From positions 1 to 64,000 of the forward strand of contig CALKGK010000012.1 of the NCBI GenBank assembly GCA_938085105.1: DNA of 64,000 bases, written 5' to 3'. Source of the stretch: an uncultured Flavobacteriales bacterium. Its GTDB lineage: Bacteria; Bacteroidota; Bacteroidia; Flavobacteriales_D; Sanyastnellaceae. The notes below the pieces were generated by a model. The model saw nothing but the letters and a program-made list of their open reading frames with translations, was not told where the DNA came from and made no database searches. Made by a program: the position numbers and the translations under genes. Of the stretch, positions 48,564 through 58,409 are shown piece by piece (the stretch's first letter is position 1; each line of letters opens with the position of its first letter).

Positions 48564-50135
48564 TTAGTCGCAATTCAAACACTCTACTTCATTCAGAAGC
48601 ACGCGAACCGTTTTTCCACGCAAATTTCTGGGGTGAAGATTTTTAAATCCAGCTCTTCCTCGGGTAATGCGTTCGATGTTTTGAGGAAGGATGAGTTGGG
48701 TACTGTCTGGTAGGTAGAGGTCCAATTGAACTTCATGCCCCCGGTATTTATCTGCCAATTGACCGCTGAAGAATGGTGATAAGAAGAGCGTATCCTCTTT
48801 GAAACGATAGTTGTACTCCATGCGATCAGCAATTTCTAAGGCATTGGAGCGTGTGCTTCCATTCACCGAGAACTCCACTTTTAGTCGGGCTTCATCATCG
48901 GAAGTGCTGTTGATTCGAAACTCAGGGAACCCATAGACGATGCGATCTTGATCTACTTTCATCAACTCTTGATAATCCCCATCGCTCAAAACGATTTGAT
49001 TGTGGAAATAGGGATCATTCTCGAGCACTACAAAAATGGAGTCGTTGGAAAGCGGCAGAAATTGGGAACTTACCTCGATGCTTGCTTCAGACTTGTATTT
49101 CGTTCCTTGAGAAACAGCCACCGTGATGGCGAATCCAATTCCAACCAAGAAAAGGATGAATAGAGCGAGACCAATACCTTTTACGCGGTTCTCTGTTCGA
49201 AGGAGGAGGCGTATTCCCAAATATATGGCGCTCAACAATGGCACTCCAATCAAAATGGTTAGGGCAATAGTGGCGAAAAGCAACATCAAGGGATCAAAGA
49301 AGATGAAGTCTTTTAAAAACTGGTAACTCGCGGTGTCTCCCATAGGTGTAGCCGTGAGGAACCCCACCAAGCTTACGATGAGGAAGACCGACATCAATAA
49401 ACCAAAGATCAGGGCTGCACCACCGAGGAGCACACGCAAGATATGTACGAGTCCGCCCGCCACTTTTTCTATGTTTTCGGCCACTTTCTTGGAGCCCGTT
49501 TTGCTAAAACGTTCTCCCTTTTCGGCGGCCTTTTTGCCAAAACCCTTGATGGATTCCCCCACATTATTGAGTTCATCGTTGATGCTTTTCGAAATGTTTT
49601 CGACATTGATTTGCTCTCCTTTCATGTGTAATTTCTCCGCACGAGTTCGCGCTTCTGGGAGAAGAATCCAAAGGAGAATGTAGATGGGGATGCCGGCAAA
49701 TCCGAGGAGAACGAGGGCAATGAAGATGCCTCTTAACCAGATGGGGTCCCAATCGAGGTAATGACTCAATCCTGAGCACACTCCACCAATCATCCCCTCT
49801 TCGGTATCTCTGTAGAATTTACGTTTTCTTCTTTTTTCCGATTGTTGCTCTGCTCTGAAATCATCTTCGCCTTCCACCTCATATTGCTCCGGTTTCCCCA
49901 TGATGGCGATCACATCATCCACGTCCGAAGAAGTAATGATTTGCTTGGAGTCGTCCAGCTTTTCCTGAAACAATTCGGCGATACGCGCTTCGATATCAGC
50001 AATGATTTCGTCTCCACCTTCTTGATTACCGTATGCGGCTTCGATGGATTTAAGGTAGTTGAGCAGGAGTTGATAGGCCTGTTCATCGATGTTGAAGGCA
50101 AAGCCTCCGATGTTTGCGGTGATGGTTTTGTTCAT
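48564..50135 (-). CDS. PspC-domain membrane protein
   Basis: A 523-residue protein. The N-terminal region is soluble (ITANIGGFAFNIDEQAYQLLLNYL and IIADIEARIAELFQEKL), then comes the PspC domain FYRDTEEGMIGGVCSGLSHYLDWDPIWLRGIFIALVLLGFAGIPIYILLWILLPEA (about 108-163). Further hydrophobic segments span about 230-260, 280-310 and 320-350, followed by a beta-rich C-terminal part with two PspC-like dimer segments. PspC proteins sense membrane stress. It is directly after a PadR regulator, overlapping by four bases, so PadR probably controls it. Confidence 0.88.
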   Translation of the reverse strand: MNKTITANIGGFAFNIDEQAYQLLLNYLKSIEAAYGNQEGGDEIIADIEARIAELFQEKLDDSKQIITSSDVDDVIAIMGKPEQYEVEGEDDFRAEQQSEKRRKRKFYRDTEEGMIGGVCSGLSHYLDWDPIWLRGIFIALVLLGFAGIPIYILLWILLPEARTRAEKLHMKGEQINVENISKSINDELNNVGESIKGFGKKAAEKGERFSKTGSKKVAENIEKVAGGLVHILRVLLGGAALIFGLLMSVFLIVSLVGFLTATPMGDTASYQFLKDFIFFDPLMLLFATIALTILIGVPLLSAIYLGIRLLLRTENRVKGIGLALFILFLVGIGFAITVAVSQGTKYKSEASIEVSSQFLPLSNDSIFVVLENDPYFHNQIVLSDGDYQELMKVDQDRIVYGFPEFRINSTSDDEARLKVEFSVNGSTRSNALEIADRMEYNYRFKEDTLFLSPFFSGQLADKYRGHEVQLDLYLPDSTQLILPQNIERITRGRAGFKNLHPRNLRGKTVRVLLNEVECLNCD

Positions 50136-50470
50136 GATTTGGCCGAATTAGAAGTCGTGAGTGTTACTGCCTTGCTGAGCTCATTCCAAGTTTTGTCGAG
50201 CTCCTTGAGGAAAAGGCTTCCAGTTTCTGTGAGTGAATAGTATTTGCGGGGTGGTCCGGAACTGGACTCTTCCCAGCGGTATTGGAGTAAGCCTGCATTC
50301 TTCAAGCGGGTGAGGAGCGGATAAAGTGTTCCTTCTACGATGATCAACTTGGCTTCTTTCAAAGCTGCGATGATATCGGAAGGGTAGGCTTCCTGTTTCG
50401 CAAGAATGGAAAGAATGCAGTATTCCAAGACCCCTTTTCGCATTTGGGCTTTTGTGTTCTCTATGTTCAT
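50132..50470 (-). CDS. PadR family transcriptional regulator
   Basis: A 112-residue winged-helix regulator. Signatures: RKGVLEYCILSILAKQEAYPSDIIAALKE at 11-39 and EGTLYPLLTRLKNAGLLQYRWEESSSGPPRKYYSLTETG at 48-86, which are the PadR DNA-binding and dimer contacts. It represses its own operon in most cases. A perfect inverted repeat on its own promoter supports autoregulation. It is the first gene of the padR-pspC operon. Effector unknown. Confidence 0.93.
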   Translation of the reverse strand: MNIENTKAQMRKGVLEYCILSILAKQEAYPSDIIAALKEAKLIIVEGTLYPLLTRLKNAGLLQYRWEESSSGPPRKYYSLTETGSLFLKELDKTWNELSKAVTLTTSNSAKS

Positions 50471-50687: not shown

Positions 50688-50789
50688 ATGGCTACTATTC
50701 GAACCAAGGCTCGGACCTTTAGCTCGGGCACACGTAAAACCGTTATTTTTCTGCTAGGAATCGGAGCATTAGCTCTTTTGCTCGTCTAA
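50688..50789 (+). CDS. 33-residue single-pass membrane peptide
   Basis: A 33-residue frame: a basic N-terminus (MATIRTKARTFSSGTRK) and a hydrophobic helix (TVIFLLGIGALALLLV) to the stop. It is preceded by a TACTTTTG -7-like box at 50539-50546, close to the PadR operator, and an AT-rich leader of about 140 bases. The shape is that of a small membrane peptide, as in phage-shock or stress regulators. Real but unproven; could be chance in a short gap. Confidence 0.5.
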   Translation: MATIRTKARTFSSGTRKTVIFLLGIGALALLLV

Positions 50790-50902: not shown

Positions 50903-51076
50903 ATGCATATTACGGAAGAGAAGTACCACGAGGTACTGCAGAAGCTCATTATGTTGTTCCTCGGATTACTCACGATGAGTGTTGTTCTTACTTCTTGTTA
51001 CTCAGCAGAGTCCTGCGCAGCTTATGGCGGAGTTGAGCAAGAATCAACCACCCAAGAAATTCTAGTGGAAGACTAA
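50903..51076 (+). CDS. 57-residue small lipoprotein
   Basis: A 57-residue frame with a charged N-terminus (HITEEKYHEVLQK), a hydrophobic stretch (LIMLFLGLLTMSVVL) and a lipobox TSCYSAES with Cys32, followed by an acidic, short mature part rich in Ser, Glu and Thr (ESTTQEILVED). The long N-terminal region before the lipobox is unusual. A strong terminator follows 27 bases after the stop, which supports a transcribed unit. It is too short for most callers. Confidence 0.6.
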   Translation: MHITEEKYHEVLQKLIMLFLGLLTMSVVLTSCYSAESCAAYGGVEQESTTQEILVED

Positions 51077-51133: not shown

Positions 51134-52864
51134 TTAAAACTGGAAGTAAATGAAGGGTTGTGCATCTGCGGTAATCACCTGATACAGTAACAGTAATACC
51201 AAGAAGGTGCAGACCAGTTGTAAAGGAATGGGCAAGCTGATGAAGGTTTGACGATACCACATTTTCCATTTGGAGGGCAAAACGTGGATCACATAACCCA
51301 ATCCCATCACGATGAATACCGGTGCGAAGGAAGCAATCACTTCCCAAGCGATGCTCAAATCCATGTTCCCAACGATTTGATTCAACATGGTATTGGCGGT
51401 AAAGAGCTCTTCCATGATGTTGTGAGCTTCTCCGAGGTTTTCCCAAGAATTGTTGGATCCGCTTCGAAACCATATTCTTGTGAAACTGATGAAGTTAAAG
51501 GTGAGGAATACTCCCCAAACACGGTTCCACCATTTCGCTTTGTTTTTCCACGGACTCACTTTGTTCCAAAGCTTGAAAACCACAAGTCCAAGACCGTTCA
51601 ACGCGCCCCAAATCACGAAGTTCCAGCTCGCGCCGTGCCACAATCCTCCGAGAAGCATGGTCATCATCATGTTGATGTTCGTGGTGCTCCATTTTCCAAA
51701 AGAGGGTACAAATCTACCTAGGATGTAAGCTGATATTAAGATTCCAATAGTTAGCCCCAATACCCAAAAAGATCCTGAGATGAAAAAGATGAAGCCAACA
51801 ATGAAACTCAATGAGACGAAACTGAATAGCGATCCACCGCGATTTCCTCCCATAGGAATGTACAAGTAATCCTTCAGCCAAGAACTCAAACTCATGTGCC
51901 AGCGTTTCCAAAAATTGCCCACACTGTCTGCCTTGTACGGCGAATTGAAGTTTTGAGGCAAGGAGAAGCCCAGCAATAAAGCAATCCCTATGGCGATGTC
52001 GGTATAACCGGAGAAATCAGCATATACTTGGAGGCTGTAACCATAAAGCGCCATTAAATTCTCAAAGCCAGTGTAGGAACCCGGTGCGGCAAAAACCCGA
52101 TCGATGAAGTTCAAGGCGAGATAATCGGCCAAAAAGAGTTTTTTCAAGAGTCCGTTCAAGATCCAAAATAGAGCGAGACCAAAGGTGGCTTTACTAAGCT
52201 GGTATTTCTGATAAAGCTGAGGAACGAAGTCGGCCGCACGTACGATCGGACCAGCAACGAGTTGGGGGAAGAAACTAACGTAGAAGCCAAAATCAATGAT
52301 GTTTTTGACCGGACGAACGTCTTTTCGGTAAACGTCGACAGCGTAGGAAATGGTTTGAAAGGTGTAAAAACTGATTCCCACAGGCAATGCGATGGTCTCA
52401 AATCGAAAACCTGTTCCAAAGAGTTGATTCGAAACCAGTGCAAAGTGGTTGATGGGGTGGAATTCGGTTCCAAAGAGGTTGTTGAAACTGTCGGCAAAGA
52501 AGTAGGCATACTTGAAATAAATCAAGATGAGCAAATTGATGGTGATGCTGAGCGCGAGCCATAATTTCCGCACGATGACTTTCTCGCTTTTATGAATGGC
52601 ATTCCCAATAAAGTAATCCGAAACAGTGGAAAAGAGCAGGAGGTAGAAAAACCACTCTGATGTTTTGTAATAAAAGTAGATGCTGACCAAAAACAGGAAG
52701 CCATTGCGCACGGCGGTGTGTTTGTGCACAAGACTGTAACCCAAAAGCACAAAGGCAAAGAAGTACCAGAACAGCAGGTTGGTAAAGATCAACGGCGAGC
52801 TTTTATCGAAAAAGATGACGGGTTTGATGGTTTCCCAAGATATTTCCAATAGACTCATGCTCAT
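51134..52864 (-). CDS. MBOAT family O-acyltransferase (AlgI/PatA/DltB-like)
   Basis: A 576-residue integral membrane acyltransferase with about 10-12 hydrophobic segments. The MBOAT signatures are RWHMSLSSWLKDYLYIPMGGNR (His323) and LLGGLWHGASWNFVIWG with invariant His410. It would move acetyl groups across the membrane to an SGNH partner for transfer to a sugar or murein. It is the last gene of a four-gene unit, overlapping the GGS-type SGNH gene by four bases. The AlgI/PatA families are indistinguishable by motif; context favours a cell-wall or exported glycan acceptor. Confidence 0.92.
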   Translation of the reverse strand: MSMSLLEISWETIKPVIFFDKSSPLIFTNLLFWYFFAFVLLGYSLVHKHTAVRNGFLFLVSIYFYYKTSEWFFYLLLFSTVSDYFIGNAIHKSEKVIVRKLWLALSITINLLILIYFKYAYFFADSFNNLFGTEFHPINHFALVSNQLFGTGFRFETIALPVGISFYTFQTISYAVDVYRKDVRPVKNIIDFGFYVSFFPQLVAGPIVRAADFVPQLYQKYQLSKATFGLALFWILNGLLKKLFLADYLALNFIDRVFAAPGSYTGFENLMALYGYSLQVYADFSGYTDIAIGIALLLGFSLPQNFNSPYKADSVGNFWKRWHMSLSSWLKDYLYIPMGGNRGGSLFSFVSLSFIVGFIFFISGSFWVLGLTIGILISAYILGRFVPSFGKWSTTNINMMMTMLLGGLWHGASWNFVIWGALNGLGLVVFKLWNKVSPWKNKAKWWNRVWGVFLTFNFISFTRIWFRSGSNNSWENLGEAHNIMEELFTANTMLNQIVGNMDLSIAWEVIASFAPVFIVMGLGYVIHVLPSKWKMWYRQTFISLPIPLQLVCTFLVLLLLYQVITADAQPFIYFQF

Positions 52865-54141
52865 TTGATATTGTTGGTCAGGTATTTTTCTTCGAGGTGC
52901 TTTCCGTACGATTGGCGGATGGCTTCAAACATCATGTCGGCCTGCAAAACATAGCCTTCCCGAGAAAAGTGAATTTTATCTGCTTTGGCCAATCCAGCGC
53001 TCTCCCAATCCGAGATGCTTCCGAGTCCGCCCATGACTTCAAAAAGATCGTAAACGGCTCCTCCATATTCTTCGGCAAGCTCATACATGACCTCTTGAAC
53101 AGCAAAGGCGTTTTTATTGGGGTAACGTCTTCGATAGTAACTGTCGTTATTGGTGATCCACAAGAACTGTACGTTTTCTTTAACGGCGCGAAACTGCTCT
53201 GCAATGGCTTTATAACGCAATTTGAAGTCCTCCTTGTCAAAGTCGTTTTTACTCATGTATGCGTCGTTGATGCCGATGCCAAAGACCACAAGGTCAGCTT
53301 GCAGTAGCTCCAATTCCTTGGGCATTTTTTCACATCTCAAGTAGCTTTTGGTGCTGGCTCCATTGACGCCAATTTCGTGATAAGCGATGCCGCCTTTCTC
53401 ATGGTCCAGGAGTCCTCCAAAGATCTTCACTTCTTCTCCATCTTGAGGATAAAACCTCAGAGCAAGACTGTCTTGTGGGCTGTTCCAATAGTACGTCGTG
53501 GTTCTCAATGTGCTGTCCACTTCAATGCGATCGGCCTTAAGCAAACTTTGGTCGGCCTGAATTTCAATGCTGTGAATGAGGGTGAAGGAATGAAAGCCAT
53601 AGCGACTACTGTCTGTTCGAATGGCGTAGAGATCGAGTCCGCAAGTATCAGAAACACTGCTCACTTCCATGCCACACATTCCCCAAATAGCATCGTGTCT
53701 GCTATGGGCACATCGTTGGGCATCCCATTCCCCGATGCGTTCAAATCTGAGGTTGGATGGTCCGTTGGTTTTGGCCAATTTAAAGGGGAAAAAGAGTCCA
53801 CGTTTCGCGTCCATCCCCGGAGAGATGTTCTGAAAATGCTCCCGCAATCGTTCGCTCAAAACACCCGCTTGAACATGGCTGCCTCCCATGTGAACGATGT
53901 TGAAACTGGCGCTGTCTTCAAACAATGCTCGATCCAAGCTTTCCCAAACATCATCATAGGAGTTCGAATGCTGCGGGAAGTGCAGCACGTTTTCAGCGAG
54001 GTTCAGAAATTCATAATGGGGAAGAGGTAAGGGAAGCGGGTCGTAGCTGAGCTGTGGTTTTTGTTCTTCTTCGCGAAAAGCAAAAATAACGGTAAGCACG
54101 ACGAGGCTGCTAATCAATCCGGTAATTCCAATGTTTCTCAT
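52861..54141 (-). CDS. SGNH/GDSL-type protein with GGS motif, membrane-anchored
   Basis: Starting at ATG 54141 (one base after the neighbour's TAG) gives 426 residues; a GTG four codons earlier overlaps the neighbour. One transmembrane helix at about 5-21 places the rest outside the membrane. The nucleophile block is HMGGSHVQAG, i.e. GGS (Ser88) where SGNH enzymes have GDS. The other sites fit: Asn292 in GIGINDAY and the Asp388/His391 pair in DKIHF. The block VYDLFEVMGGLGS matches the second SGNH gene upstream, so they are divergent paralogues. Likely O-acetyltransferase or esterase of the cell envelope. Confidence 0.82.
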   Translation of the reverse strand: MRNIGITGLISSLVVLTVIFAFREEEQKPQLSYDPLPLPLPHYEFLNLAENVLHFPQHSNSYDDVWESLDRALFEDSASFNIVHMGGSHVQAGVLSERLREHFQNISPGMDAKRGLFFPFKLAKTNGPSNLRFERIGEWDAQRCAHSRHDAIWGMCGMEVSSVSDTCGLDLYAIRTDSSRYGFHSFTLIHSIEIQADQSLLKADRIEVDSTLRTTTYYWNSPQDSLALRFYPQDGEEVKIFGGLLDHEKGGIAYHEIGVNGASTKSYLRCEKMPKELELLQADLVVFGIGINDAYMSKNDFDKEDFKLRYKAIAEQFRAVKENVQFLWITNNDSYYRRRYPNKNAFAVQEVMYELAEEYGGAVYDLFEVMGGLGSISDWESAGLAKADKIHFSREGYVLQADMMFEAIRQSYGKHLEEKYLTNNIK

Positions 54142-54142
54142 T

Positions 54143-55633
54143 CTATTGCTCACCCTTTCGCTGTTTCCACTGATTGTATTCTTTCATGAAGGATTGATTG
54201 AAGAGTTCTCCAATTTCCTTAGCTCCCTTCGAGGTGAAGTGAACGTAATCTTTTCCAGCTAGTGGCGGATCGGCGTTTACCCAACTTTCCATGGAATTTT
54301 CTCCTCCCATCACTTCATAGATGTCCCAAAATCCACATCCGTTACTGAGTGCAGCTTCCTTGAGTGCGTCGCGAACGACGGTGAGATAGGGGTAGGTGAT
54401 AAATTCATCGTCCACTTTTTTGGCCATATCTGAAGGACCTATTACTACGAATGTTGCTTCAGGCATCAGGCTTTTAAGACGAACGATTTGTGATGCAAAC
54501 CACCTCCCGTAGTTCTTAGCTTGGGTACTGTCTTTCACGTAAGGCACACTATTCCCACCATACTGAAGCAAAACGAGTCTTGGGTTCAATTGCTTGTAGT
54601 GCTGAGCGAGTTGTTCTTGATCGATTTTCTTGAACAAGGTTCCCGAGCTTCCTCTCATGGGGATGTTGTGTACTTGAACTCCTTTGTACGAACCGAAATT
54701 CACGGCATAGAACTCAGGAGAAGCACTTCCGAGGACTTCGATTTTGAAGTTTTTCACCTTTTCATTGAAGCCAATATTCTTGTATTTCAACTCTTCACTA
54801 ACCAATAAGGTATCGCTTGCTATAATGCTGTCGTTCAGCCAGTAGTTAACTCTTCCTGGGGCTGGAGTGTGTCCGTAAAAAATCCCAGCACGTTGAAAGC
54901 TTCGTGTATTGGAATAGCCCAATCGGGAAGGTTCAAAGGTGACGAAAGCTGAGCTGTCTTCAATGCTCATTGCTTGAGCAAAGGCGGCGAGCAAGCCATA
55001 CCTTTTATGTTCGATGCGTTCATCGGTTTTTCCATAGAGGGTGAAGCGCTCAAAGGATTGTTTTTCTTTTTGTTTGATGGCGGAAGAGGGCACAACTTCA
55101 ACAACGGGAACGAGTCCGGGACCTTTTCCTCCCCATTTGCCTTGCCAGTGTTTTCTCAAGATATTGGTAATGCGGTCGGTTTCAATTTGCGAATCGCCAT
55201 AGTGCAAGATGTCCACGAGCTCTTTGTCGCTATTCTCTAGCGCTTCAAACAAGGGGGCAAAAAAGGAAGTTTCTCCTTTTGGAACTTGAATTTTTAAACG
55301 TTCCAAGGCTTTTTGAACTTCGATGGCTTTCAACCTTGCTGTTTCGATAGAGTCCAGACGCATTTCTTTGGCGCTAGGGGCACTTTTGCTTTTTACGCTG
55401 CTGCTATCTTCTGGGCTGTCTTCATCTGTGTGATAGCTGCTCAATAGTGCATTCACATCAAGCTTCTTTTTTTTCTTTTTGAAGGGTTGAAAGTCTTCCA
55501 CCTGAGCAAATTTCAGCTCAAAATCATCGCCAATTTGAATGCCTTCTTTTGGCCAAACGCTTGCAATGGCGAAAGAGGCTGCACCTACGATGAAGAGACA
55601 TAAAAAGGTAGTAAAGGGTGAAATTGTACTCAT
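54143..55633 (-). CDS. SGNH/GDSL-type protein with canonical GDS, membrane-anchored
   Basis: A 496-residue paralogue of the neighbouring gene. One N-terminal membrane helix (about 9-27) then a Lys-rich linker (FKKKKKK at 51-57) and a charged coil (90-115). The SGNH domain has the canonical HYGDSQIE (Ser148), Gly328 in MRGSSGT, Asn361 in QYGGNS and Asp462/His465 in DYVHF, so all four family blocks are intact. It shares the YEVMGGENS block with the GGS paralogue. It overlaps the LysM gene by four bases. The likely role is transfer of acetyl groups to, or removal from, peptidoglycan or glycan. Confidence 0.87.
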   Translation of the reverse strand: MSTISPFTTFLCLFIVGAASFAIASVWPKEGIQIGDDFELKFAQVEDFQPFKKKKKKLDVNALLSSYHTDEDSPEDSSSVKSKSAPSAKEMRLDSIETARLKAIEVQKALERLKIQVPKGETSFFAPLFEALENSDKELVDILHYGDSQIETDRITNILRKHWQGKWGGKGPGLVPVVEVVPSSAIKQKEKQSFERFTLYGKTDERIEHKRYGLLAAFAQAMSIEDSSAFVTFEPSRLGYSNTRSFQRAGIFYGHTPAPGRVNYWLNDSIIASDTLLVSEELKYKNIGFNEKVKNFKIEVLGSASPEFYAVNFGSYKGVQVHNIPMRGSSGTLFKKIDQEQLAQHYKQLNPRLVLLQYGGNSVPYVKDSTQAKNYGRWFASQIVRLKSLMPEATFVVIGPSDMAKKVDDEFITYPYLTVVRDALKEAALSNGCGFWDIYEVMGGENSMESWVNADPPLAGKDYVHFTSKGAKEIGELFNQSFMKEYNQWKQRKGEQ

Positions 55634-57012
55634 GGTTTTTGACGAATAATGAGTTTTTGTCCTGGACGGATATCAGTACTGATCTTGTTCCATTTCATGA
55701 TGTCATCAGCGGAAACACCGGGGTATTTCTGGGCAATCAACCAAAGACTATCTCCACTTTTAACGGTGTAAACGCTTTCTTTTGCAGCCGGGCTCAATGA
55801 AACATCAGAAGTAGATGCTTCTCGGTCTTCTGATTTGTTTTTGTTTTTCTTCGTTTCAGGTTTTGTGATGGCATAGATGAGCAATCTTTGTCCAACATCA
55901 ATGCGATCACTTCGGAGCTGATTCCAATCCATGATTTGACTTACGCGAACTCCAAACTTTCCTGCAATTTTTCCCAGGACATCTCCACTTTGAACGATGT
56001 ATTCGTTCTCTTCTCCTTTGGGAGCGGGCGGCGGACTGGGTTTTTTAACGGTTGGTTTCCAAGCATAAAGCGAATCTGCTCGTTGTTTGAAAAGCTCCAT
56101 TTTTTCCACAGGAATGATTAATGGAACTGCTCGGTATGGTCCAGGGATGAGCTGACCGATGTACGCAGGATTCATGCTATTGAAGGTGTTTTTCTCAAGT
56201 TGAAGGATGGAAATCAAGGCTTCTTTATGAATGGTATCAGTGATGGGGATGGCGTCAAAAGCATTGAATTCATTCAACCAAAAAACAAGTTGGTTCTCTC
56301 TTTCAAAGTTTTCTCTCAATCGAATACACACCTTCAAAGCGCGAAAAACATTGATCATTTCTGGGTCGAGAAGAATTTCAGCCTCAGTTCGAGCATTGGT
56401 CCACTTCGCACCTTTCACAAAAGCGGCGATGGTTTTGATGTGACTTTCCTCGAATACATCAAAATAAGCCCGAAGTAGCTCAGTAGCCGACTCCGTAGCA
56501 ATGGAAGGAGCTCTGCGTTCGTCGATGTTCTGATCAACTCGAAGACCTTGTCTTTTTGCCCGCACGAAATCCAAGGCCCAGAGTCCTGCTTGGTCTTTGT
56601 TGTTTCTAAAAGAAGGGTTTAGTCCGCTCAACACCATGGTTAAAAAAGCATAATCTCGATCCATGCCTACGCGCTCGAGATGTTTATGCAAGAGTGGGAA
56701 ATAAACATCAGCCAAAGACTGTATTTCTAGAAAACGCTGGCAGTTTTGGTTTAAAAGCAATTCAATGTATTCGTTTTCTTTCTCAGGGTTCAGGGGAAGT
56801 GCTTCTAGTGCAATTTCAAATGGACTTTTACTTGCGATGATGTCTTTGAATGGGGGAGGACAAGCAGGATTTTGAGGCAAGCGTTTTGTAATGCTTTGAT
56901 GAAACCAAGAGTTGACATCGGGTTGCCAGCGTTGAGAGACTTCCGTAGCACTGTGTTGTGCAATCGCGGCCAAAGGGATCAAGCACCAAAAAAGTAGCGC
57001 GAAAAATTTCAT
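55630..57012 (-). CDS. LysM protein with inactive lytic transglycosylase-like domain
   Basis: A 460-residue exported protein: signal peptide (1-19), an N-terminal domain aligned to MltD-type lytic transglycosylases (about 100-215) and two LysM domains (336-382 and 414-457) that bind peptidoglycan. In active enzymes the domain begins ESxxNP; here it is MVLSGLNPSF with Leu128 at the Glu position, and the later AYNxGxxxV is AAFVKGAKW. Other marks such as QAGLWALDF and DERRAPSIATESA are conserved. It is thus likely a catalytically dead murein-binding subunit. A -7-like TATCTTTA box (57017-57024) sits four bases before the ATG. It heads the acylation operon. Confidence 0.85.
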   Translation of the reverse strand: MKFFALLFWCLIPLAAIAQHSATEVSQRWQPDVNSWFHQSITKRLPQNPACPPPFKDIIASKSPFEIALEALPLNPEKENEYIELLLNQNCQRFLEIQSLADVYFPLLHKHLERVGMDRDYAFLTMVLSGLNPSFRNNKDQAGLWALDFVRAKRQGLRVDQNIDERRAPSIATESATELLRAYFDVFEESHIKTIAAFVKGAKWTNARTEAEILLDPEMINVFRALKVCIRLRENFERENQLVFWLNEFNAFDAIPITDTIHKEALISILQLEKNTFNSMNPAYIGQLIPGPYRAVPLIIPVEKMELFKQRADSLYAWKPTVKKPSPPPAPKGEENEYIVQSGDVLGKIAGKFGVRVSQIMDWNQLRSDRIDVGQRLLIYAITKPETKKNKNKSEDREASTSDVSLSPAAKESVYTVKSGDSLWLIAQKYPGVSADDIMKWNKISTDIRPGQKLIIRQKP

Positions 57013-57188: not shown

Positions 57189-57671
57189 ATGAAAATGCAC
57201 GCCAACTATGCCAACGCTTTGAGCGCTCGCGTTAAAGAAATGAAAGATCGCGGCTACTCTTCTCAGGATGTAACCATCAATTTTAAGCCACATGATTTTG
57301 TGTTCTCTACCTTCTTTGAGGCCAGCGATTTACATGGTTTTTATATCGGCGGACTACCTCATACCATTGAGCTTTTTGAAATATTCAGATCTGCATTTCC
57401 AAAAAAGTGGGAAGAACTCACTTGTGGGATGCGCGATAAAGACGGAGACCAAGTTTACCACGCTGCACACAATCTAAAACCGCTCTTTCGGATGATTGGG
57501 ATTTGCCGCTTCAATGAATTTTTGAATATCCTCACTCAACGAAAAACAGCGGTAGATCAAGACAAAGAAAATGCCTTTCAGAGCATTGAGTCCAGATTAC
57601 CACAAATCATGTATATGACCGCTGTTGAAGTAGCACGAATGAAAAACTACATCGCAACGAGTGCCCAATAA
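57189..57671 (+). CDS. Hpt-domain-like phosphotransfer protein
   Basis: A 160-residue helical protein containing YHAAHNLKPLFRMIG, matching the Hpt motif HxLKGxxxxxG with His94 as phospho-acceptor; the usual Gly after Lys is Pro here, which is unusual. The flanking helices (62-80, 105-125) fit a four-helix bundle. No kinase or other domain. It sits 36 bases upstream of a LytTR regulator, so the two may form a phosphorelay output. The first ATG (57189) is followed by a second two codons later. Confidence 0.7.
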   Translation: MKMHANYANALSARVKEMKDRGYSSQDVTINFKPHDFVFSTFFEASDLHGFYIGGLPHTIELFEIFRSAFPKKWEELTCGMRDKDGDQVYHAAHNLKPLFRMIGICRFNEFLNILTQRKTAVDQDKENAFQSIESRLPQIMYMTAVEVARMKNYIATSAQ

Positions 57672-57707
57672 CCTTTAAAATCTCTCTAACCACCAACACC
57701 CTAGCTT

Positions 57708-58409
57708 ATGAAACTCAGATGTATCGTTGTTGATGACGAAACCATGGCCAGAGCTTCCGTGAAGCATCTTTGCCAAACGCACGAGAATATTGAATTTGAC
57801 TGCGCCTTCGAAAATGCGAAGGATGCCTTGCATTACTTAAAGCACAACCACGTGGATCTTGTTTTTCTTGATGTTGAGATGCCCGACCTCAACGGCTTTC
57901 AATTACTGAAATCTTTAGAGTCCGCTCCCAACGTGATCTTCACAACATCGCACAAGAGCTATGCCTTTGATGCCTTTGAAGTGAAGGCTGTGGATTTTAT
58001 TTCTAAACCCATCAAGTCGAGCCGTTTTCAAGAAGCGGTTCAAAAAGTACTCGATTTGGAAGAATTAAAACAAAGCAATGGAGCAGAGGAAGGATACATT
58101 TACGTTAAAACTGACGGAAAACTCACTCGTGTAGAGTATACTGACATTCTTTATATCGAAAGCATGAAGGACTATGTGAATATTCGCACCAAGGCAGGAC
58201 GATTAGTCGTTCACTCTACCTTAAAAAAGATGCAGGAAACTTTGGAGGAGGATGGTCGTTTTGTTCGAGTTCATAGAAGCTTTATTTGCAACGTCAACCA
58301 AGTGGTCGATTTCTTGAAAAATGAGATCATCATAGGCGATTATTCTTTGCCCGTTTCAAGAGCACATAAACAAGGATTATTGTTGCATCTCAGAGATAAA
58401 AGCGCATGA
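57708..58409 (+). CDS. LytTR family response regulator
   Basis: A 233-residue regulator with a receiver domain (1-110; Asp55 in LVFLDVEMPDLNGF, acidic pair near residues 9-10, Lys100 in FISKPIK) and a LytTR DNA-binding domain (about 127-228; IYVKTDGKLTRVEYTDILYIESMKDYVNI, then FVRVHRSFICN). It would bind direct-repeat sites as a dimer after phosphorylation. It follows the Hpt gene on the same strand. A LytS-type kinase is encoded at 26819-28666 but not next to it. Confidence 0.92.
   Translation: MKLRCIVVDDETMARASVKHLCQTHENIEFDCAFENAKDALHYLKHNHVDLVFLDVEMPDLNGFQLLKSLESAPNVIFTTSHKSYAFDAFEVKAVDFISKPIKSSRFQEAVQKVLDLEELKQSNGAEEGYIYVKTDGKLTRVEYTDILYIESMKDYVNIRTKAGRLVVHSTLKKMQETLEEDGRFVRVHRSFICNVNQVVDFLKNEIIIGDYSLPVSRAHKQGLLLHLRDKSA

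Follow-up and report, generated by a model that had tools for sequence, protein, structure and literature searches.

A probable peptidoglycan O-acetylation operon of the Bacteroidota type headed by a LysM protein without the catalytic glutamate of MltD-type transglycosylases

The window analyzed here, that is, the whole stretch of 64,000 nucleotides from an uncultured Flavobacteriales bacterium, carries four co-oriented genes on the minus strand, which run from position 57012 down to 51134 in the order LysM protein, SGNH1, SGNH2, and MBOAT. All four open reading frames were confirmed by an ORF check:

55630..57012, minus strand: LysM protein, pseudo-lytic transglycosylase of the MltD type, 460 aa; a signal peptide, an SLT-like domain with Leu128 in place of the catalytic Glu, and two LysM domains at the C-terminus
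54143..55633, minus strand: SGNH1, predicted Ape1-type SGNH protein, 496 aa
52861..54153, minus strand: SGNH2, predicted second Ape1-type SGNH protein, 430 aa, GTG start
51134..52864, minus strand: MBOAT acyltransferase, PatA-like, 576 aa

The Pfam matches over the cut-offs were SLT (1.1e-07) and two LysM domains (1.5e-31) in the LysM protein, Lipase_GDSL_2 in both SGNH proteins, and MBOAT (2e-21) in the acyltransferase. This agrees with an earlier note on this DNA, which had listed an MBOAT protein (His410), a GDS and a GGS SGNH protein, and a LysM protein with a dead transglycosylase-like domain. Its assignment to an MBOAT/SGNH O-acylation cluster is supported. It had also placed all junctions at overlaps of 1-4 bases, which has to be corrected: in operon order, the genes overlap by 4, 11, and 4 bases. 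If SGNH2 started at the in-frame ATG at position 54141 instead, the SGNH1/SGNH2 junction would be a 1-base gap. A scan of the region from 48.4 to 59.0 kb against Rfam gave zero matches.

A number of small and regulatory genes flank the operon. Just past the end of the MBOAT gene and convergent to the operon lies an ORF of 57 aa (50903-51076, plus strand) whose N-terminus resembles that of a lipoprotein (LTSC). Its homologues occupy the same place in five relatives (G001, G002, G006, G013, G016). A 33-aa ORF at 50688-50789 has a counterpart in G001 alone. Behind the operon (48564-50470, minus strand) lie genes for a PadR regulator and for PspC, an envelope-stress protein, and they are kept there in the same five genomes. 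On the other side (57189-58409, plus strand), a protein with weak similarity to Hpt and a response regulator of the LytTR type are encoded facing away from the operon. The corresponding position in G006 and G013 is occupied by a LytTR regulator together with an ∼800-aa protein that weakly matches a regulator gene.

We subsequently compared the locus with 40 related genomes and with a wider sample of 392 genomes. SGNH1 is present in 29 of the 40 relatives, and in 11 of the 40 the genes for LysM protein, SGNH1, SGNH2, and MBOAT are contiguous and in the same order. This count includes one genome (G021) in which ∼1 kb separates SGNH2 from MBOAT. Beyond these 11, the four-gene set of two further relatives (G002, G028) is split apparently only by contig ends. 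The same set is also found outside the order, in G223 (locus L111). The search for this gene order across genomes, proposed in the earlier note as a check, thus showed it to be conserved, and an arrangement that is contiguous both in 11 of 40 relatives and in a genome outside the order is not explained by chance. Six relatives (G007, G008, G009, G012, G017, G019) have scattered genes and still possess all four, and three (G003, G015, G022) keep SGNH1 and MBOAT without SGNH2. In the wider sample, an SGNH1 match was obtained for 76 of the 392 genomes, and core clusters without the LysM gene reach across the phylum.

The three-gene core is already known. Clusters of ape1b, ape1c, and pat ("OAP" clusters) have been described for B. 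thetaiotaomicron, B. fragilis, and P. gingivalis, and murein O-acetylation amounts to 69% in B. fragilis and 27% in B. thetaiotaomicron (Weadge et al. 2005; PMC1199599). In them, as in the operon described here, an MBOAT gene comes after two SGNH genes of the Ape1 family. Therefore, the proposal that the operon represents a new machine does not hold for its SGNH1-SGNH2-MBOAT part, which matches these Bacteroides and Porphyromonas loci from 2005. Our scan of named genomes revealed orthologous SGNH1-SGNH2-MBOAT clusters behind efflux-type genes in Bacteroides caecigallinarum, Phocaeicola, and other Bacteroidaceae, which we equated with the 2005 loci by genus, gene order, insert pattern, and the upstream efflux-type genes. 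In trees obtained with a quick method (SH-aLRT support), SGNH1 groups with the first SGNH protein of the Bacteroidaceae (Ape1b type; 100), SGNH2 with the second (Ape1c type; 100), and the MBOAT protein with the OAP-type MBOATs of the Bacteroidaceae (99), apart from the two other MBOATs of its own genome.

However, three differences to the OAP clusters were observed. First, SGNH2 contains an insert, a segment of ∼100 aa after motif I, which is missing from Ape1c and, in agreement with PMC1199599, from the SGNH2 proteins of the named Bacteroidaceae. Second, motifs I and VII read GDS(H/F) and Dx(V/T)H in the OAP proteins, but GDSQ and DYVH in SGNH1 and GGSH and DKIH in SGNH2. Third, the gene for the LysM pseudo-transglycosylase is added here, and none was seen in the Bacteroidaceae clusters. 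It is this fourth protein, a cell-wall-binding enzyme without its catalytic residue, that looks new. In the literature, which was searched largely outside subscription journals, we found no description of a LysM/dead-transglycosylase gene in an O-acetylation operon.

The LysM protein shares with MltD an SLT domain followed by two LysM domains, and it is 27% identical to the MltD-type protein encoded elsewhere in the same genome. But while the latter retains the catalytic Glu (V-E-S) and the AYNAG motif, the LysM protein reads V-L128-S and AFVKG at these positions. Among 53 sequences compared, 20 have Leu, Ala, Ile, or Thr in place of the catalytic Glu, which the remaining 33 possess. The two groups fall on opposite sides of a single branch with a support of 100/98, so that Glu occurs in 0 of the 20 pseudo-transglycosylases but in all 33 MltD-type relatives. 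The description of a dead transglycosylase-like domain therefore applies not only to this protein but to a clade of its own. Its 20 members, all full-length ORFs, come from nineteen related genomes and one genome outside the order.

Is this protein functionally linked to the core? A pseudo-transglycosylase was found in 19 of the 29 relatives with SGNH1 versus 0 of the 11 without (Fisher p=1.9e-4, a value that overstates the independence of the genomes because of their kinship). The six genomes with scattered genes are better evidence that this link exceeds operon hitch-hiking. Nevertheless, ten relatives with SGNH1 lack a recognizable pseudo-transglycosylase, and therefore the protein is not essential to the core. 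One could argue that it is a decaying MltD copy, or a protein with an unrelated role, that came to lie in the operon by chance. Its absence from these ten relatives and its fast evolution fit this explanation, as does the region upstream of SGNH1 in G003, G015, and G022, where only weak or short matches were detected. But the Glu-less proteins are full-length and lie together on one side of the branch, and plain decay is also argued against by the retention of the G-x-W motif and, in most members, of both LysM domains. Moreover, the gene heads the operon and has been retained in the six genomes in which the operon is broken up. We therefore regard decay or chance as unlikely. That the pseudo-transglycosylase is kept beside the core in many genera suggests that it guides or regulates the other three proteins, and we infer a docking or regulatory subunit.

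A precedent for such a function exists in Neisseria meningitidis, where the lytic transglycosylase LtgA was shown to form a complex with Ape1 and to stimulate it, the stimulation being mutual (PMC7083599). Both cases combine a protein of transglycosylase fold with an Ape1-type esterase. LtgA is an active outer-membrane lipoprotein, whereas the operon protein is of the MltD type, Glu-less, LysM-bearing, and encoded in the same operon as the SGNH proteins. LtgA is nonetheless the nearest functional precedent for the pseudo-transglycosylase, and we see about even odds that in Bacteroidota this dead, LysM-bearing MltD derivative does an LtgA-like job. The idea of the earlier note that the LysM and dead domains dock the complex on murein fits these data and the LtgA-Ape1 precedent, and we retain it as a conjecture.

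Both SGNH proteins are, judged by their sequences, of the Ape1 (peptidoglycan O-acetylesterase) type. Almost the whole of each protein aligns with the Ape1 structures of N. meningitidis and C. jejuni, and all catalytic positions correspond; the profile matches to N. meningitidis Ape1 (4K3U) had E values of 1.8e-38 for SGNH1 and 9e-42 for SGNH2. The S/G/N/D/H positions are Ser148 (GDSQ), Gly328, Asn361, Asp462, and His465 (DYVH) in SGNH1, and Ser92 (GGSH), Gly265, Asn296, Asp392, and His395 (DKIH) in SGNH2. Ape1 is an SGNH protein into which a CBM35-like module is inserted; SGNH1 contains an inserted carbohydrate-module-like segment, and SGNH2 has an N-terminal hydrophobic anchor besides its own insert. 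For SGNH1 (model with a mean pLDDT of 73), the first five PDB matches of a fold search were Ape1 structures. The SGNH2 model was set aside because of its poor insert (pLDDT 54), and the fold evidence thus covers SGNH1 alone. Structure modeling was confined to sequences from the window and from related loci. The GGS protein had been taken for a divergent paralogue. A dead or degenerate SGNH2 can be ruled out, since Ser, Asn, Asp, and His are conserved and GGSH is typical of its clade.

The PatA-PatB-Ape1 operons of Neisseria and Campylobacter likewise encode an MBOAT protein with a catalytic His and the FXYXXF motif together with an Ape1-type SGNH protein. But the operon described here has a different gene order, two Ape1-type proteins instead of one, and no PatB; the lack of PatB and the pseudo-MltD gene at the operon head are its departures from this set. 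PatB belongs to the DUF459 family (PMC9487903). The search of the genome with PF04311 (DUF459) yielded nothing over the cut-off of 27.2 bits, the best signal being SGNH2 with 21.4 bits, and PatB was therefore rejected as a partner of the MBOAT protein. The match to the PatB structure 8TLB was restricted to 25 residues (E=0.19). No AlgX-type partner (PF16822) was matched in the genome, but neither was one in the control genomes.

Since no DUF459 match in the genome exceeds the cut-off, acetyl transfer is probably carried out by an SGNH protein of the Ape1 type or by one encoded elsewhere. Neither SGNH1 nor SGNH2 looks like a PatB-type transferase, because the hydrolase-type Gly of block II is retained in both (Gly328 and Gly265), whereas PatB and OatA have Ser or Asn there. 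We consider SGNH1 the candidate transferase, since it stays with the MBOAT gene in the three relatives without SGNH2; this is the weakest step of our model. Alternatively, both proteins could be pure esterases, so that the MBOAT protein would use a third SGNH protein and the operon would couple acetylation to removal. The Ape1 type and the hydrolase-like block II Gly of both proteins are compatible with this, and the genome offers two potential third partners: contig 27 encodes one more GDSL_2 protein, and on contig 88 an SGNH-like ORF (L102) adjoins another MBOAT gene. The latter, however, has its own MBOAT alongside, and the Bacteroides-type cluster likewise contains only two SGNH genes, yet the murein of Bacteroides is O-acetylated. 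Taken together, we judge this alternative quite improbable. The missing PatB raises a clean and testable question, namely which Ape1-type protein transfers the acetyl group.

The MBOAT protein itself is PatA-like. The catalytic His410 is part of a WHG motif and occurs in all 58 homologues. The C-terminus, FIYFQF (F571-I-Y573-F-Q-F576), fits the consensus FXYXXF, and its Tyr as well as the final Phe are conserved in 58/58 homologues each. PatA shuttles acetyl to PatB on the Tyr of this motif (PMC12148441).

Because both SGNH proteins belong to the O-acetyl-peptidoglycan esterase type, peptidoglycan is the most likely acceptor, and the orthology of the core to the OAP cluster and the shuttle motif FIYFQF of the MBOAT protein point in the same direction. 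The murein acetylation proposed in the earlier note thus stands as a likely reading, with the acceptor deduced from sequence. Alginate, cellulose, and secondary wall polymers are also acetylated by MBOAT/SGNH pairs (PMC12148441), and binding of other glycans by the CBM-like inserts is conceivable, but an exopolysaccharide or O-antigen as acceptor, with the LysM protein merely tethering the system to the wall, is very improbable, given that the nearest solved relatives are murein O-acetylesterases (for both SGNH proteins by sequence, for SGNH1 by fold), that an MltD-derived LysM gene travels with the core, and that no polysaccharide synthesis genes were seen adjoining the operon by ORF and Pfam reading or in the neighborhoods of relatives.

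We therefore favor, with a probability of roughly 0.7, a peptidoglycan O-acetylation/de-O-acetylation operon of the Bacteroidota type in which the pseudo-transglycosylase would place or stimulate the SGNH proteins on murein. According to this model, the MBOAT protein would take acetyl from cytoplasmic acetyl-CoA via His410, load it on its own Tyr573, and present it in the periplasm. One Ape1-type protein, preferably SGNH1, would accept it on its serine and pass it on to murein, while the other SGNH would strip acetyl groups. The LysM pseudo-transglycosylase, which would no longer cut glycan, might hold murein by its LysM domains and the empty groove and thereby place or stimulate the SGNH enzymes there.

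O-acetylated murein resists lysozyme as well as the lytic transglycosylases of the cell itself. For the question of how the acetylation sites are chosen, a pseudo-transglycosylase that is genetically tied to the acetylation genes is a concrete targeting candidate. A bolder version, which we put forward tentatively and as a possibility, is that Bacteroidota acetylate murein without PatB by means of an Ape1-fold SGNH protein turned transferase, and that the pseudo-lytic transglycosylase of many genera is a murein-reading subunit that directs or gates both transfer and removal of acetyl groups. If true, a dead autolysin would decide where live autolysins may cut.

Some variations of the core were also noted. 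Divergent core clusters with MBOAT proteins ending in PIYLQF occur at L137, L138, and L140 (G158, G093, and G082), where the order is SGNH1-MBOAT-SGNH2, and at L059 and L061 (G004 and G023). Several SGNH1 homologues have no adjoining MBOAT gene (L117, L119, L120, L125, L130, L141) and perhaps act on a different glycan target. At L117, a TPR protein is encoded before the SGNH1 homologue and a polysaccharide-synthase-like glycosyltransferase after it, and the other five loci show the same order of similarly sized genes. In some genomes of other classes, an AMP-ligase-like gene (∼570 aa) was read between SGNH1 and MBOAT (L116, L126), and a gene of like size and place is present at L118, L123, L127, and L129; it might indicate a different acyl donor.
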